From: a virus
Length of the DNA stretch: 41,271 nt
Reading direction: 5' to 3' (one strand)
Virus record (IMG/VR): IMGVR_UViG_3300035564_000013
Location: 1-41,271 of that record
The position numbers were made by a program, and so were the translations under genes. The notes beneath the pieces were generated by a model. That model was not told where the DNA came from. It was given only the letters and a program-made list of their open reading frames with translations, and made no database searches. Positions 5,043-39,921 of the stretch are shown piece after piece; within the stretch, counting starts at the first letter, position 1; every line of letters begins with the position of its first letter.

Positions 5043-7084
5043 GGCGTATCGCCAACAAGAACTTTCCGCGTAACCCCGTTAATCGTTTGATTTGAATAAT
5101 AGAGTTCCCTCGTTACAACCCCACCAGAAGATGCCGCAACAAATAATCCAGAAGCCGTTAACGTTCCCCATACTGAAGTCGGATAGCCGGCACTACTCAA
5201 AATGAAACTCGACGGGGAGTAGCTTTGCCACGTCCCTTTTAAATCATTGAATGCGTCTACAACGACAGTCGTGTTATAGAGGCAATAGCTTTGGAAATAT
5301 GCCGTACCGCTACTGTCTACGCGTGCATCTTCTGTCCCCTGACCACCAGATGGTCCCCAGCGATTGAATGTAACCAAATCTCTTACAGTCCTAGAACCTC
5401 GGACTGCGATTCTTGTCGTTGCCGATATATTGTCTGTCCCAAGTCCTATCGGCGCTAGGTTATTCCCGGCAATATTGATCTGAGAAGAACTGCCCGAACG
5501 CAAGTATAGGTTGCCAACATTCTGAATGACATACCCAGATAACTGCGTGATGTCGGCGACATTCGAAACCGCACCGCTGTTCATCGTCACACCGCCGAAA
5601 CTCGACGCGGTTGCGGCCCCGCTTAGATTCATACCAACACCATGCAATACTCCCGTCGAATCCATCGTTGCCATTTCAACACCGTTGCCATTCGTTCCCC
5701 ATCTGTACCAAGATTGGATATTGAACAATGTTCTGTGACCGAAGGCGGTGACTTTTGCGCTACCCGAAACACTTGCACCCAAAGCTATTTGAGCGCCATT
5801 ATTGTCACCAATCATGATTGGGTAAGCATCGCCCGCAGAACGGAAGTAAGCATTTCCCTTGCTTTTGTAAACCGAACCTGCGTCCATACTGATATCTTGA
5901 ACGCTTGTGATTGCTCCACTCGACAGAACAACGCCATCGAATGAACTGCCGTGATATCTTCCGTTTGTGTCAACGGTCGCAACCGTAGCCCCGCTTGTCA
6001 TCTGGATCACTTGCAATACAGTCGGTCCAGATCCATTTCTAAGTTGAAGTTCCCCGTCGTCTATCCGCATAGCTTTTTGGGGAGGATTAAAAGCAACAAA
6101 ATTTGCGCCGCCCGTAGTCGCTTGGATTGTTATCAGGTTTCCAGAGAGCGTGGTTTGAATATAGTCTTTATACGCTCCACTGGTATTCCTATAAATCAAA
6201 ATGTCAATCGGTCGAAAACTTGCACCCGCAGTAGAATAATATTGCAAAACGTGTGCTTCTACAACCGAATCGGCAGCGTTGTTTCTATAGAAAGTCTCAT
6301 ACCATCTTCCAATCCCTATATCAGCCGTATTTATGCGGACACCGCTTGAGGTTGCATTGTATCCATCGCCCCATACAACATTCTGCCGTGTTTCACCGAA
6401 ACCGTTTAGAGAACTATGAACCGTTAATTGAAACGGACTTCCTTCGGAAGTATATCTCTGGTATTTCATTTTCACAGCTTTTCCCCAACTCGAATCAACA
6501 ACATATCCTTGAGCATGCATGGTATCTGTCGGAATGGCCATTGAGACAGAACCACCGGCACGTGTCAAGAATTGAGTAACACCCGTTGCAAGCGTGTCCC
6601 TTGTACCGTTGCTGCGCGTGATAAAGACATGGTTCCCGTCAAATTCAAATAATCCAACGATAGGGGTTGCGAGAAGCGCATTGACAGATAACTTTATCGG
6701 CTTCAAAAATACACTTGAGTCACCAGTGATTTTGATCCACTCTTCCAACCCACCAATTCTTATGGAACTATCAGCAAGTGACCGAATGTAAGAAATGATT
6801 GTCGTTCCGTTTTGCCCTCTTGCTTCAATGCCTCGATAAATATTCGATTCCGAACGTCCAAGCGAACGAACATAATCGACGATGCTGAATCTATCGCCCG
6901 TGATGACTCGATGCCCAATTGCGCCCTTCAGGCTGTCGTTTTTCCAGAACACAATAAATGGATCTATGCTTGTTGTCACCGAATCTTTGACCTTCGATGG
7001 CGCTGTCATCATAGACGGTTTGGCTGGTGTCCATTGTCCGAACAATTGAGAAGCAAAGAGCATCAGAAACATAATACATTTCAT
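5039..7084 (-). CDS. Tail fibre / receptor-binding protein with N-terminal signal-like segment, 681 aa
   Basis: The ATG at 7084 is chosen over the longer frame (to 7159) because GAGGTGG lies just upstream and the longer frame overlaps the previous gene. Residues 1-17 look like a Sec signal peptide ending in FGQ. The body is beta-rich, Ser/Thr/Gly-rich and Cys-poor, as in fibres. Two tandem repeats of about 105 residues (about 380-480 and 492-597) share the features NAYFRS/NLYLRS, GDNNGAQIALG/GNNLAPIGLG and YRWG/FNRWG. There is no chaperone or enzymatic domain. Position at the end of the tail module fits host recognition. Confidence 0.7.
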   Translation of the reverse strand: MKCIMFLMLFASQLFGQWTPAKPSMMTAPSKVKDSVTTSIDPFIVFWKNDSLKGAIGHRVITGDRFSIVDYVRSLGRSESNIYRGIEARGQNGTTIISYIRSLADSSIRIGGLEEWIKITGDSSVFLKPIKLSVNALLATPIVGLFEFDGNHVFITRSNGTRDTLATGVTQFLTRAGGSVSMAIPTDTMHAQGYVVDSSWGKAVKMKYQRYTSEGSPFQLTVHSSLNGFGETRQNVVWGDGYNATSSGVRINTADIGIGRWYETFYRNNAADSVVEAHVLQYYSTAGASFRPIDILIYRNTSGAYKDYIQTTLSGNLITIQATTGGANFVAFNPPQKAMRIDDGELQLRNGSGPTVLQVIQMTSGATVATVDTNGRYHGSSFDGVVLSSGAITSVQDISMDAGSVYKSKGNAYFRSAGDAYPIMIGDNNGAQIALGASVSGSAKVTAFGHRTLFNIQSWYRWGTNGNGVEMATMDSTGVLHGVGMNLSGAATASSFGGVTMNSGAVSNVADITQLSGYVIQNVGNLYLRSGSSSQINIAGNNLAPIGLGTDNISATTRIAVRGSRTVRDLVTFNRWGPSGGQGTEDARVDSSGTAYFQSYCLYNTTVVVDAFNDLKGTWQSYSPSSFILSSAGYPTSVWGTLTASGLFVAASSGGVVTRELYYSNQTINGVTRKVLVGDTP

Positions 7085-11315: not shown

Positions 11316-13201
11316 TTCCCGCCTCCGACACGTCTACGAGAATTTGTAATATTTCCTCGTTCGACAACCGTGGCGATTCCGCCCTCATCGAAAGTATTAT
11401 TGATGATGAAAACGGGTTTCTGTCCGCCTCCATAACGTGAAGCCTGAGCCATTTGATTCATATTCGCAAGATGTTCCGGTCCTTGATCCGCGATCATGTG
11501 AAATTGTTTGGTTCTGGTATCCATCGCAATCGTTGGATTTGTGAACCAGTAATCTCCTGACGCGTGTGCTGTGATTGTTTTTGCAGCACCGAATAGAGCC
11601 GTGGGCGCTAGGCTAACGCCTCCGGTCGCAATCGCAGTGCCTATATTGAAAATCCCGCTAAGAATATCCCAAAGTCCCGAACCTGCTTTTGCCGCTGCGA
11701 ACTGAGTTAAACCCGACAAGATCGTTGCGAAGAAATTCCCCACCAAGTTATTGGCAAGTCCGAAAGTTTTTCGCAGCTCGTCAGCCAGCGTAGTTGTGGC
11801 TTGTGTGAAACTGTTCTTCATTGTCTCGCCAAGCATTTCGGCGTCATTTTTCCCTTTTTCGAACTGCGGATGGAACACTCCCTCTTCGCCAAGCCATCCA
11901 TGTTGCAATTGCGGCTTCCCCATTCCCCAAATATTACCACGTCCACCAAGGATTTGAGATGGTGTAAGAGATTCGCCGGGAGCACTTACATGAATATCTT
12001 TCTGCATCCGTTCTGCGAGTTGTTCCCGTGTTTCGCTGAGCTGTTTTACTGCTTTCTGAACCAACTCAAGTGCTTTTGTATATCTGAACCATATTTCAGT
12101 TCCGGCTTTTGTAATCGCTAATTGATCAGTCAATCCCTTTGTAAGCGCAGCAAGTTCTTCGCTTGTAAATCCAGCAGCCAAAACCTTTCTCATTTGGTCC
12201 ATGTTCACGGATTGAGAAAGTTGAACAAACTCCCTCACAAGCTTCGCGTGTTCCCTTAGCTTCCCTTCTTGATATTCAAAATATTGCCGCGTTGATTCGC
12301 GAAGTTTTGTAAGTCTCCCTAGTTCTGTATCTTGTCCAAACAACGTAAGCGCGCCACCGCTCTTTTCTTTCTCTGCCTTGATTTGTTCATCGATTTCCTT
12401 GAGCTGATCGTTGATGCTTTTCTTCATATCAACTATTATCTCAAGTGTCCGCTTGCCCCCTGGAAATGCATTGTCTAATTCGTTTGATAATTTGCGGATC
12501 TTCTCCGCGAGTTGCTCAACTTGTTCAGCGTGTTTTTTGGTTGCCTCGGCAGCCTTCTCGGTGTCGTCTTTTGAACCTTTCAATAAATCCTTTATAACAG
12601 TTGCAAGGCCAATAAATATCGCAAATGGTAACGCAATCTTGATAGCAGATCCACCCATCATGTCGAGGGCGAATTTCATGCCAAAAGCTGCAGAAGCACC
12701 ATCTGTCATTGTTTTTGCTAAAGCAGATTCTCCGCCAATCAATGAGCCAACAGCAGCAGTACTCTCGCGAACGGCAAACATTCCCATGCGCCGCTCTTGC
12801 CGTCCGGATCGAATTTTATTAGCAAGTGTGTCTTCTTTCGCTCCCATTTCATCGGCGGCCAACCCTCCGAAAAGCATCGTGCGATTATACTCACGCAACT
12901 GAGTCCCGGCTTCAAAATATGTCTTGTGAAGTCTTCCGGTCGCACCCGTAAGCGGATCAATACCTTGCTCTTTAAGATTTTTCGTTGTCGCGATTGTGGC
13001 AGCAAAATCCTGATTGAGTTTTCGCGTTTCACCATCGAAAGAACTCCAAAGAGCAGTCCCCTTTTTGATGAATTCCGCTTGTTCGGCAATGCTTGCGGTC
13101 CCGGCCCGAATCTTTGAATCTAATTCTTGGAGTCGTGCAATTGTTACACGAATACCTGCATCATCGGTCGTTGTAACGATATGTAGGGTTGCATCAGGCA
13201 T
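11312..13201 (-). CDS. Tape measure protein, 629 aa
   Basis: This is the second-longest gene of the genome, directly downstream of the chaperone pair. Residues 1-130 are helical. Hydrophobic segments lie at about residues 180-205 (IKIALPFAIFIGLATVIKDLL) and 520-565. A long Lys/Glu/Gln-rich coiled-coil region spans about 210-400, and the C-terminus is Gly-rich and basic. At about 1.5 Angstrom per residue it would set a tail of roughly 90 nm. Its start overlaps the stop of the upstream -1 frame (TAATG). The helical, hydrophobic, coiled composition and context make the call strong. Confidence 0.8.
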   Translation of the reverse strand: MPDATLHIVTTTDDAGIRVTIARLQELDSKIRAGTASIAEQAEFIKKGTALWSSFDGETRKLNQDFAATIATTKNLKEQGIDPLTGATGRLHKTYFEAGTQLREYNRTMLFGGLAADEMGAKEDTLANKIRSGRQERRMGMFAVRESTAAVGSLIGGESALAKTMTDGASAAFGMKFALDMMGGSAIKIALPFAIFIGLATVIKDLLKGSKDDTEKAAEATKKHAEQVEQLAEKIRKLSNELDNAFPGGKRTLEIIVDMKKSINDQLKEIDEQIKAEKEKSGGALTLFGQDTELGRLTKLRESTRQYFEYQEGKLREHAKLVREFVQLSQSVNMDQMRKVLAAGFTSEELAALTKGLTDQLAITKAGTEIWFRYTKALELVQKAVKQLSETREQLAERMQKDIHVSAPGESLTPSQILGGRGNIWGMGKPQLQHGWLGEEGVFHPQFEKGKNDAEMLGETMKNSFTQATTTLADELRKTFGLANNLVGNFFATILSGLTQFAAAKAGSGLWDILSGIFNIGTAIATGGVSLAPTALFGAAKTITAHASGDYWFTNPTIAMDTRTKQFHMIADQGPEHLANMNQMAQASRYGGGQKPVFIINNTFDEGGIATVVERGNITNSRRRVGGGK

Positions 13202-16020: not shown

Positions 16021-16083
16021 TGCTGGCCTTTATGAAGTGAGCGAATGCGGGAATCTAACGATTCCCGCATTCGATTGAAGATG

Positions 16084-31809: not shown

Positions 31810-32742
31810 TTAGGGGTGATACACCATATCCATGATTGTCATTCCAATATCGTCGGGAACGGAACCCTCTTCGTAGAGCTTGCAAAGTTTCGTGATTTTC
31901 AGTGCAAGCTCAACGCGGTTCTCCCCCTCTAACTCTGTGGGGAAAACGCGGGAACGGAGCCACTTTGAGCGCATTTCCTTCATGCCACAGACGTAACTAA
32001 ACCGAGCTTCAATACCTTCTTTCGTTTCCCTGTCGCTATGATACTTGGCGGCTTCGTCAATCTCCTCGTCTGTCGGCAATCCCACGGGAGGGGCGGACAG
32101 AAAGGATCTTGCGGTATCACACGGCCACGGAACGCCACAAACAATACAGTAACCGTGTATTTTCCCATTCTCTGGATCATGTTCGGCTGAATGGCAAGCA
32201 CGATGCGCTATCGCTGCGGCGATCATTTTATTGGTCTCTTCCCCTTGTTCGGGGAGACGGGGGGAGGAGACGGTTACACCCGTTCCGTCGCAAGCATCGC
32301 ACTCATCAAAGTTCGCACTCTGATTCCCTTCGAGAATCGATGGTGTACTTCCTGTTCCATTGCATTGTTCGCATTGCACTCTTGTCTCTTCCCCCTTACC
32401 TGTGTCGGGGGAGGAAAGAGACAATACGAAGGAAACTATGGAACACATTCCCGATGTCTGGCTTTCAATCCAGTATTTTCTCTTTTCGGGGTCGGATGGC
32501 TCTGGTTCATGATAGTATCGTTCGTGTCGCTCGCAAACGAGTTTTCGTGCGATTCTGAAAACCTCTTCACTCACACCGTAGCAGAACTTGTGGCAATTAT
32601 TGCATCCAGGCCAAAAAGTAGGGCTTCCGGCGTTGTCAACCGTTTCGATTGGCTCAATTTTACCGCCGCAACCGTTACAAACACCGTGAATAGTTGTCTG
32701 GCAATGCTCTTTTGTGATTTCGTATTTCGGTTTCTGTTCCAT
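31810..32742 (-). CDS. Multi-zinc-finger hypothetical protein, 310 aa
   Basis: At least three cysteine clusters are visible: CNGCGGKIEP and CNNCHKFC near residues 20-55, CEQCNGTGSTP and CDACDGTGVTV (DnaJ-like CxxCxGxG pairs) near 124-157, and CIVCGVPWPC near 200-208. Between them are charged helices. DnaJ-like pairs bind two zinc ions and often contact unfolded or partner proteins. The AAAGGG site supports the start. The function is unknown. Confidence 0.65.
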   Translation of the reverse strand: MEQKPKYEITKEHCQTTIHGVCNGCGGKIEPIETVDNAGSPTFWPGCNNCHKFCYGVSEEVFRIARKLVCERHERYYHEPEPSDPEKRKYWIESQTSGMCSIVSFVLSLSSPDTGKGEETRVQCEQCNGTGSTPSILEGNQSANFDECDACDGTGVTVSSPRLPEQGEETNKMIAAAIAHRACHSAEHDPENGKIHGYCIVCGVPWPCDTARSFLSAPPVGLPTDEEIDEAAKYHSDRETKEGIEARFSYVCGMKEMRSKWLRSRVFPTELEGENRVELALKITKLCKLYEEGSVPDDIGMTIMDMVYHP

Positions 32743-35210: not shown

Positions 35211-35441
35211 CTACGCCTTTATTCCGAATCTTTTCTTGTTTGGTATCTCAACAATCTGGGTGACTTCATCCTTCTTGCGGTTCCATCTCAGCTTAATTCC
35301 AAAAAGTTCGAGAATAGATTTCTGTGTTTCATAACGTAGCCACAGATCGAATCTCTTTGCCGGATCTTTCTCAGTAACAAGTTGACTTTTGAGTGCGCTA
35401 AGAACGGGATCGTGAATTATCAATAAGTGTTTCCTCTTCAT
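35211..35441 (-). CDS. Hypothetical protein, first gene after the RNA block, 76 aa
   Basis: The ATG at 35441 is preferred over the TTG at 35531. The product is basic and helical (PAKRFDLWLRYETQKSILEL, then RWNRKKDEVTQIVEI). It is the first gene downstream of the structured noncoding region and starts the accessory operon. No family was recognised. Confidence 0.5.
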   Translation of the reverse strand: MKRKHLLIIHDPVLSALKSQLVTEKDPAKRFDLWLRYETQKSILELFGIKLRWNRKKDEVTQIVEIPNKKRFGIKA

Positions 35442-35501: not shown

Positions 35502-35527
35502 CTGAGTATATCTCAGGCGGTACTCAG
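35502..35527 (-). repeat. 7-bp inverted repeat in the leader of the accessory operon
   Basis: CTGAGTA (35502-35508) pairs with TACTCAG (35521-35527) around a 12-base spacer. A second small stem (35478-35494) follows. They lie 40-90 bases upstream of the first start codon and may be an operator or leader structure. Confidence 0.35.
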
Positions 35528-35794
35528 ACAAGCTCTCTTTGCATCACTGTTCTTCCTGATGGTTCCAGCGACGGAATACAACCATCTTAGTATTGCAGTC
35601 AATCGGTGAAAAATCGCGACGAATCGCACTCGCAGGAGGCCTTGTCCGGTGAGGTGGTCGCACCCACGGCCATTGTTCCGATTGTCAAAGAGAACAGAAA
35701 ATAAACATTGCAGCTCGTTCCTTGACTTGCCAGCCAAGAGGTGAGCTTGCGAGAGATCCCTGTTATGTGAGATTGAAACGGATGGGAAAACATA

Positions 35795-35884
35795 GGTTGC
35801 TGGCAGGTTCTCTCTGTTCCTCGCGATGGAACCGAGCAAAAAGACGTGAGCACCGTTCCCTGCTGGGGACACGCCACAGCAACC
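35795..35884. ncRNA. Multi-branch structured element
   Basis: A closing stem of 8 bp (GGTTGCTG at 35795-35802 with CAGCAACC at 35877-35884) encloses two hairpins: GTTCC/GGAAC (35816-35820 with 35828-35832) and GTTCCC/GGGGAC (35855-35860 with 35865-35870). A three-way junction of this kind suggests a folded RNA. The strand is not certain. Confidence 0.4.
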
Positions 35885-35894
35885 CGGAAACAAA

Positions 35895-35975
35895 ACGGCC
35901 GCGTCTCGGGGCACTCGAATTGCTCCGACCGAGAAAACTCTATCGAGCAAAGAGTGGCAACCGAGACGCGGCCGT
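35895..35975 (-). ncRNA. Extended hairpin with T-rich 3' end
   Basis: A perfect 15-bp stem (35895-35909 with 35961-35975) continues inward through CACTC/GAGTG and TTGCTC/GAGCAA to an AGAG/CTC-type tip. On the minus strand it is followed by TTTTGTTT, so it can terminate transcription. The arm length is far beyond a normal terminator. Confidence 0.5.
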
Positions 35976-35976
35976 A

Positions 35977-36111
35977 AAATAAAAATGCCCCCGACAAAGT
36001 AGCAAAACCCATCCTGCGAGAGATGAATTTGTCCCTTGACGGGGACAGACTTTCGGGGGCAAAAGTATGATTTCGAGTATTCATTTCTCGCAGAGACTGA
36101 TTGGTTTTGCT
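35977..36111 (-). ncRNA. Candidate structured small RNA with own promoter
   Basis: The minus strand would be transcribed from about 36110. A 9-bp terminal stem (36103-36111 with 36001-36009) encloses a 15-bp stem (36079-36093 with 36014-36028, one G-U), which encloses a loop with a 6-bp hairpin (36030-36035 with 36042-36047). GCCCCCGA in that loop (36053-36060) pairs with TCGGGGGC downstream of the terminal stem (35987-35994), forming a pseudoknot or an alternative terminator followed by ATTTTTATTTT. No protein reading frame with a ribosome site is present. The RNA is about 130 nt. No known RNA family was recognised. Confidence 0.6.
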
Positions 36112-36116
36112 GATTC

Positions 36117-36145
36117 AATATAGAAACGAGGGCCATCATTGTCAA
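36117..36145 (-). promoter_or_regulatory. Consensus sigma70-type promoter of the small RNA
   Basis: On the minus strand a perfect TTGACA (36140-36145) is followed by exactly 17 bases and TATATT (36117-36122). The expected start near 36110 falls on the first base of the terminal stem of the small RNA. This is the strongest promoter match in the window. Confidence 0.7.
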
Positions 36146-36146
36146 A

Positions 36147-36338
36147 TTAATTCTCAACTTTCTTTCGTTTACTCTTCCCCTCGAAAAGTTCCCGTATCTC
36201 ACAAATTGTTCTGAGTTGTCCCCTGTGATAGTCGGCGGTAGACATCCACTGTTCAGGCTTTTTGAAGTGCCGTTCCATCATCTGAGCGTGTTTCTCGGTT
36301 TCCTGCAGGTATTGCTCAAGGCGTTTGGGGATTTTCAT
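36147..36338 (-). CDS. Hypothetical basic helical protein, 63 aa
   Basis: Helical and basic (KRLEQYLQETEKHAQMMERH, ending GKSKRKKVEN). It is the last gene before the RNA block and overlaps the upstream gene by 23 bases. No family was recognised. Confidence 0.55.
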   Translation of the reverse strand: MKIPKRLEQYLQETEKHAQMMERHFKKPEQWMSTADYHRGQLRTICEIRELFEGKSKRKKVEN

Positions 36339-39198: not shown

Positions 39199-39921
39199 TT
39201 AGAGTGATATTTGTGCAGGGTAGTCTTTTTGGCGTGGGAATACTCCGTCGTTTTCATTATGCCACATCTTCTTGCAGGCAAGGAACAAGTCGAATTTGTC
39301 ATCAACCTCCGTGAATTTGAAGCCCTTCTTGTTCTTTCCATAACCGACTTGCAGAATTGCCATTTTCTGCGCGGGCCTCGACAATGCGTGGTTGTATGCC
39401 GAAAGTTGAATCTCCATCGATGGCCAGACGTTCGGGGATGTTTTGAAATCCACAAGATAAGGAATCCCGCCGATCTCACAAACCATGTCCAGCGTCCCTG
39501 CGTATTCGTATTCGTCGTTAAAAACCACTTGCTCGTTGGCTATAAGCGTCGGATTGGTTTCTTTCCACCAAGCAGCGAATGAAATCACAGCATCGTATTC
39601 CTGAACCGTCAAGGGAGATTCTTTCCCGTCTGAATCAGTGAGAATCTCGTCCATCAAAACCGTTCCCCGTTGTAAGAGTTTCTCGATTGCGTGGTGGACC
39701 TTAGAGCCTCGATTTCCAGCGACGGCCTTGATTGACTCGGCTTCATCCCATCCCTTATCGGCAAGCCATTTGTAGAATCCGATTCCCTTCGGATAGTAAT
39801 CTGTAATCCAGGTAACCGAGGGATAGAAGCCTAAAGTCTTTGGATGTTGATACCAGCGTTCATCCGTTGTTGTGATTTGAATGATTCCGTCTGGTTTGAT
39901 TGCGCGAAGTTCGATTTTCAC
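39199..39921 (-). CDS. RecB/Cas4-type PD-(D/E)XK nuclease, 240 aa
   Basis: Motifs in order: NRGSKVHHAIEKLL with the conserved His at about residue 75, GTLDMV with Asp, YLVDFKTS with the catalytic Asp and Lys, and QLSAYNHA with Gln and Tyr. This is the RecB/Cas4 nuclease motif set. No cysteine cluster as in Cas4 was seen. It likely acts as a 5'-3' exonuclease or in recombination of phage ends. It is coupled to its neighbours. Confidence 0.75.
   Translation of the reverse strand: MKIELRAIKPDGIIQITTTDERWYQHPKTLGFYPSVTWITDYYPKGIGFYKWLADKGWDEAESIKAVAGNRGSKVHHAIEKLLQRGTVLMDEILTDSDGKESPLTVQEYDAVISFAAWWKETNPTLIANEQVVFNDEYEYAGTLDMVCEIGGIPYLVDFKTSPNVWPSMEIQLSAYNHALSRPAQKMAILQVGYGKNKKGFKFTEVDDKFDLFLACKKMWHNENDGVFPRQKDYPAQISL

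Follow-up and report, generated by a model that had tools for sequence, protein, structure and literature searches.

RydC of enteric bacteria is a small RNA of about 64 nt that folds as an H-type pseudoknot, ends in a U-rich 3′ tail and exposes a seed at its 5′ end. It depends on the pseudoknot for its stability in vivo and touches Hfq through the U-tail (PMC4337610). Among phages, HK022 putL and putR are structured RNAs of ~70 nt directly behind early promoters, each with two stem-loops of conserved sequence, that suppress termination in cis on RNA polymerase (PMC9378689), while the gene 32 leader of T4 and T2 holds a pseudoknot with an A/U-rich single strand near a recombination/replication gene, is bound by gp32 and serves translation control, with no terminator within the knot (PMC3014915). 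The PR′-tR′ leader of P22 and lambda (P22 annotation) is a promoter followed at once by a terminator, and is the substrate of a Q-type protein. The HMP-PP (thiS) riboswitch is a ligand-binding cis switch upstream of bacterial thiamin genes whose terminator stem shares strands with a pseudoknotted structure, such that the pseudoknot disrupts the terminator (PMC6478431), and the ToxI RNA of type III toxin-antitoxin systems is a small pseudoknotted RNA of phage-bacteria conflict (PMC5772629), and it assembles with a co-encoded toxin.

Here we describe a locus in the window, by which we mean the whole IMG/VR virus record IMGVR_UViG_3300035564_000013 (41,271 bases) of an uncultured bacterial virus, where nearly all likely genes lie on the minus strand. 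The genome's largest non-coding gap (~705 nt, from ORF 36147–36338 to the probable start of ORF 35211–35441) holds a predicted RNA surrounded by recombination genes, including an exonuclease gene (39199–39921, phrog_298), and all likely genes downstream of this RNA are on its strand. The features, in the direction of transcription, are:

36117–36145, minus strand: promoter TTGACA-17-TATATT (TTGACA 36145–36140, 17-nt spacer, TATATT 36122–36117), directly after the stop codon of ORF 36147–36338; the sole 11/12 sigma70 match
35976–36111, minus strand: predicted small RNA of 136 nt, from +1 at the first base of P1 to an end in the T-tract; fold z −3.8; same architecture in other phages
36103–36111, minus strand: 5′ arm of P1, AGCAAAACC, 9 bp with 36001–36009
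36079–36093, minus strand: 5′ arm of P2, CTGCGAGAAATGAAT, 14 pairs and one A·C mismatch with 36014–36028
36061–36078, minus strand: single-stranded, A/U-rich loop segment, a candidate effector region
36053–36060, minus strand: loop arm of the crossing (pseudoknot) helix, GCCCCCGA, C-rich and complementary to TCGGGGGC
36030–36047, minus strand: 6-bp hairpin TGTCCC/GGGACA (arms 36047–36042 and 36035–36030)
36014–36028, minus strand: 3′ arm of P2, ATTCATCTCTCGCAG, pairing with 36079–36093
36001–36009, minus strand: 3′ arm of P1, GGTTTTGCT, pairing with 36103–36111
35987–35994, minus strand: tail arm of the crossing helix, TCGGGGGC, 6 nt downstream of the outer stem
35976–35986, minus strand: T-tract ATTTTTATTTT directly after TCGGGGGC, the first termination site as predicted from sequence
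35886–35975, minus strand: second terminator, a perfect 15-bp stem with a nested hairpin, then TTTGTTT

One site in the window has at least 11 of 12 sigma70 matches, where ~0.2 are expected per strand under a sigma70 model that may not fit the host. This is the near-perfect promoter that an earlier note on this DNA had reported without a strand, and it lies on the minus strand. That note had also set the transcript start at the first base of a 9-bp stem, and P1 does begin at the expected +1, 5 nt after the −10 box, and is lengthened by a further 3 bp. Its 6-bp hairpin was found again, as was its pairing of the loop with downstream sequence ahead of a T-rich tract, namely GCCCCCGA with TCGGGGGC (9 bp counting the flanking U-A) and then ATTTTTATTTT. 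The inner stem, given there as 15 bp, is present but consists of 14 Watson-Crick pairs and one A·C mismatch, and the claim of at most one G-U does not hold on the RNA strand, where this mismatch stands instead; a G-U at that place is seen on the opposite strand alone. Missing from the note was the second terminator, which lies directly behind the first and is very strong, stronger than the first. Finally, the statement that there is no reading frame is right as to coding signal, but a 229-codon open frame (35513–36202, minus strand) does cross the RNA and both terminators; with a codon score of −0.08, as in non-coding frames (training genes 0.05 to 0.34), it is probably a chance occurrence, and this score rules out the RNA region as a coding frame.

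The 136-nt RNA has a minimum free energy of −45.1 kcal/mol against −30.2 ± 3.9 kcal/mol for shuffles (z −3.8), the z falls to −9.2 when the second terminator is folded together with it, and a window-wide fold scan (1176 windows, both strands) returned the RNA region as the best z. A third block (35780–35895) has an ordinary folding energy. Elsewhere in the window, a strong hairpin (GAATGCGGGAATC/GATTCCCGCATTC, 16021–16083) lies between two late genes without a T-tract. Both strands of the RNA region fold well in the scan, and together with several long inverted repeats, the recombination-gene setting and the size of the gap this would suit a DNA element, either a replication origin or another cruciform, whose inverted repeats act as single-stranded DNA hairpins. 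We regard such an element as highly improbable, given the strand-specific promoter at the start of the stem and the T-tracts that follow both structures on the same strand; the stretch also holds no iteron array, and no skew turning point falls here.

We compared three folds of the RNA, obtaining −38.7 kcal/mol for the nested terminator, −45.1 kcal/mol for the stems alone and −55.9 kcal/mol, before any pseudoknot penalty, for the stems with the loop-tail helix, the pseudoknot energies being ViennaRNA sums without a calibrated penalty. By these values the pseudoknot would be favored, if sterically possible. The linker from P1 to the tail arm is only 6 nt, which makes the pseudoknot sterically tight, so that the crossing helix must sit beside the P1/P2 stack, an arrangement that a rough length count would permit, with the 18-nt loop on one side and ~6 nt plus the hairpin on the other. 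The earlier note had proposed that pairing of the loop and terminator arms could be a switch. The comparison does not support this for the window RNA: the nested terminator is ~6 kcal/mol worse than the stem fold, as both stems are lost, and the pseudoknot sum is lower still, so that such a switch is unlikely at equilibrium.

Searching for relatives, we found no Rfam 15 family at or above its gathering threshold for the window RNA, in line with the note's remark that no RNA family was recognized. There was likewise no match in blastn of the region against annotated phages, HK022 included, or in exact-motif scans of IMG/VR with the window RNA, though the records open to these searches may have lacked very close ones, and plain blastn of the region against exonuclease-sharing relatives gave chance matches only. 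Protein-anchored searches (NinG, a NinB-like protein and a 107-aa neighbor) each returned one relative or none, while the phrog_298 exonuclease has relatives of up to 57% identity on about 65 IMG/VR contigs, with no common gene order where checked. We found no matching published RNA class in the open-access literature, which does not prove that there is none.

Set beside the described systems, the window RNA may come nearest to RydC in its mode of action, both being small RNAs with an H-type pseudoknot, here a predicted one, and a 3′ tail rich in U. Unlike RydC with its exposed seed, it has a predicted 5′ end that is the paired first base of P1, and it is about twice as long (136 nt), lies in a phage and has no sequence match, membership being judged here from the absence of any Rfam 15 family match. 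HK022 put, the T4 gene 32 pseudoknot and the HMP-PP riboswitch would serve as functional comparisons only. The window stems are nested over 136 nt rather than set as two adjacent stem-loops, blastn gave no put match, and in contrast to put the window element itself ends in terminators and its counterparts are unrelated in sequence between phages; and where the HMP-PP pseudoknot disrupts a terminator, the terminator arm of the window RNA would complete the pseudoknot. As to ToxIN, the flanking ORFs show no match to a toxin family and the region holds no tandem RNA copies. The window RNA is far more structured than the P22/lambda leader, and the window shows neither a clear Q protein nor a clear Q site. 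Downstream of the RNA, ORF 31810–32742 has a 36-residue match to the Q-like antitermination family phrog_6060, possibly only a common zinc motif.

We then asked for architecture rather than sequence across about 59 phages with the same exonuclease (2.37 Mb, much of their contigs), the descriptor being a promoter, a stem near +1, a loop arm pairing across that stem with a tail arm, and then a T-tract. Descriptors were made after seeing the window, so the window's own match is by construction and no independent evidence, whereas matches in other phages are independent evidence, apart from threshold tuning. Look-alikes close to the exonuclease were already seen in a first loose scan. At scores of at least 35 there were five matches (the window, L016, L101 and two in L032) against 0.25 in a shuffled copy, with control rules on the same DNA giving one (mirror), one (complement) and two (direct repeat); at scores of at least 38 there were four real matches and none by any of these rules, while at lower scores the chance rules yield one or two. 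An energy-based search without the promoter recovered seven cases with a gain of at least 12 kcal/mol, against none in shuffles; six of the seven lie no more than 4 kb from the exonuclease, a zone of about a fifth of the DNA. Strong architecture matches lie at most 3.5 kb from the exonuclease, and the window RNA, 3.5 kb from the center of its exonuclease gene, falls inside the 4-kb limit set for the architectural class. The matching RNAs follow the same plan with sequences unrelated to that of the window RNA. Eight control stretches from other phages (302 kb) gave no match, a weak control as ~0.6 would be expected at the main-set rate. A loop motif common to L101 and L021, TTTTTTTATGYCAACAG, was not found in other loci or contigs searched, and a tandem-repeat stretch at a contig end (L032:13906–14253) adjoins the second pseudoknot RNA of L032.

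Two homologous pairs among these relatives allowed the helices to be examined for covariation, with arms matched by hand because a gap in L101 falls elsewhere when set by the sequence aligner. The two L101 copies (5213–5316 and ~12989–13085) are 73% identical, each lying behind a near-consensus promoter and before a ribosome-binding site and an ORF with HNH-like motifs, and between them 9 of 15 P1 pairs and 3 of 6 crossing pairs are changed on both sides with none broken. L010 and L014 are 73% identical over 99 nt, with compensatory changes in 7 of 14 P1 pairs and 2 of 10 crossing pairs, again with none broken. That so many compensatory changes are kept in both pairs points to selection on both crossing helices in those relatives and supports reading them as real RNA features in L101 and L010/L014, which does not imply that they form simultaneously. 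This covariation is seen in architectural relatives only; the window RNA itself has no sequence homolog, so its membership of the class is one of architecture and common descent is not shown.

Several observations accompany these pairs. The whole unit of promoter, pseudoknot RNA, ribosome-binding site and HNH-like ORF occurs twice in L101 (5173–5916 and 12953–13641) with wholly different stem sequences, and looks like a mobile cassette; Pfam searches of the ORFs next to the other instances returned only sub-threshold NUMOD3/HNH, for one L101 ORF. The homologous RNAs L010:9203–9330 and L014:4470–4590 share a conserved loop, GCTGGTGGTGC..AAGGCATTGCC.AGCAC, and in both the crossing helix is prolonged into a very long terminator hairpin. 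In L010, an Rfam abiF RNA (RF03085) above its gathering score (L010:8960–8995) lies some 240 nt upstream of this pseudoknot RNA, and no AbiF-like protein was recognized near it.

Covariation also bears on whether the locus is just a strong promoter and a compound terminator between two early gene blocks, its short RNA a by-product comparable to a phage leader that is terminated constitutively. This would fit the tandem of two terminator-like structures, the coding blocks on either side on one strand and the annotated P22 late promoter, with terminator tR′ following within ~40 nt. Yet termination can do without a stem anchored at +1, covariation is seen for both crossing helices in relatives, and there would be little point in a promoter that feeds just a terminator unless it gave a product or allowed read-through to be controlled. 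We consider this explanation quite unlikely.

More weight, though still on the unlikely side, goes to a cis leader or attenuator of the downstream early genes, in which a phage or host factor (an antitermination factor, a single-strand-binding protein or the ribosome being candidates) sets termination against read-through at the pseudoknot or the second terminator. Directly behind the T-tract in L021 and in both L101 copies come a GGAGG ribosome-binding site and an ORF, so that the mRNA of these genes must pass through the element, and in L016 the element begins the rightward early region. Precedents are the HK022 put RNAs, terminator suppressors located immediately after early promoters (PMC9378689), and the T4 gene 32 leader, whose pseudoknot controls its own translation (PMC3014915); in the window, too, all likely genes lie downstream on the same strand. 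Against this stand the very strong second terminator, ~440 non-coding nt before the next gene, the lack of a ribosome-binding site after the element, and the energetically disfavored nested-terminator switch. Given its position directly before a ribosome-binding site, a leader role is more likely than a free small RNA in L101 and L021, where the element would additionally be a 5′ leader.

For the window, we prefer the small RNA over the leader because of the second terminator, the ~440 non-coding nt to the next gene and the lack of a ribosome-binding site behind the element, and with about even confidence we predict from the sequence a phage small RNA, similar in kind to RydC, that is transcribed constitutively, terminates itself and folds as a pseudoknot. 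To this extent the earlier note's small RNA with promoter, nested stems and pseudoknot is upheld by the sequence, the fold statistics, the same architecture elsewhere and the covariation in two homologous pairs, its switch being the part that finds no support. Host RNA polymerase would start at 36111 and stop at 35976 or, failing that, near 35886. The tail arm supplies the 3′ strand of the terminator helix, so that termination itself would complete the pseudoknot, and the product, its 5′ end base-paired and its 3′ end knotted and U-ending, should be long-lived. Such an RNA may act in trans via its A/U-rich single-stranded loop (36078–36061) or its U-tail, either through base pairing or as the binding partner of a phage or host protein. 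Searched against the phage's own translation starts, its single-stranded parts found antisense targets no better than shuffled queries did.

The presence of similarly built but differently spelled RNAs near the exonuclease in several viruses hints at a kind of viral control RNA not described before. More tentatively, and with rather less than even confidence, these RNAs may form a broad undescribed phage class in which the helix of an intrinsic terminator doubles as one limb of a pseudoknot whose anchor lies at the transcript start or close to it, a class that recurs by the recombination exonuclease of unrelated phages with ever-changing sequence, is kept for its shape alone, and in one phage is placed before HNH-like endonuclease genes. 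Such a shape might serve, for instance, for ribonuclease resistance or for occupying a host RNA-binding or transcription protein. RNAs conserved in shape only escape sequence-based family searches, and if this architecture does mark a class, it would offer a simple route to such RNAs in uncultured phages and make directly testable why phages put a start-to-stop pseudoknot of a short transcript beside their recombination genes.
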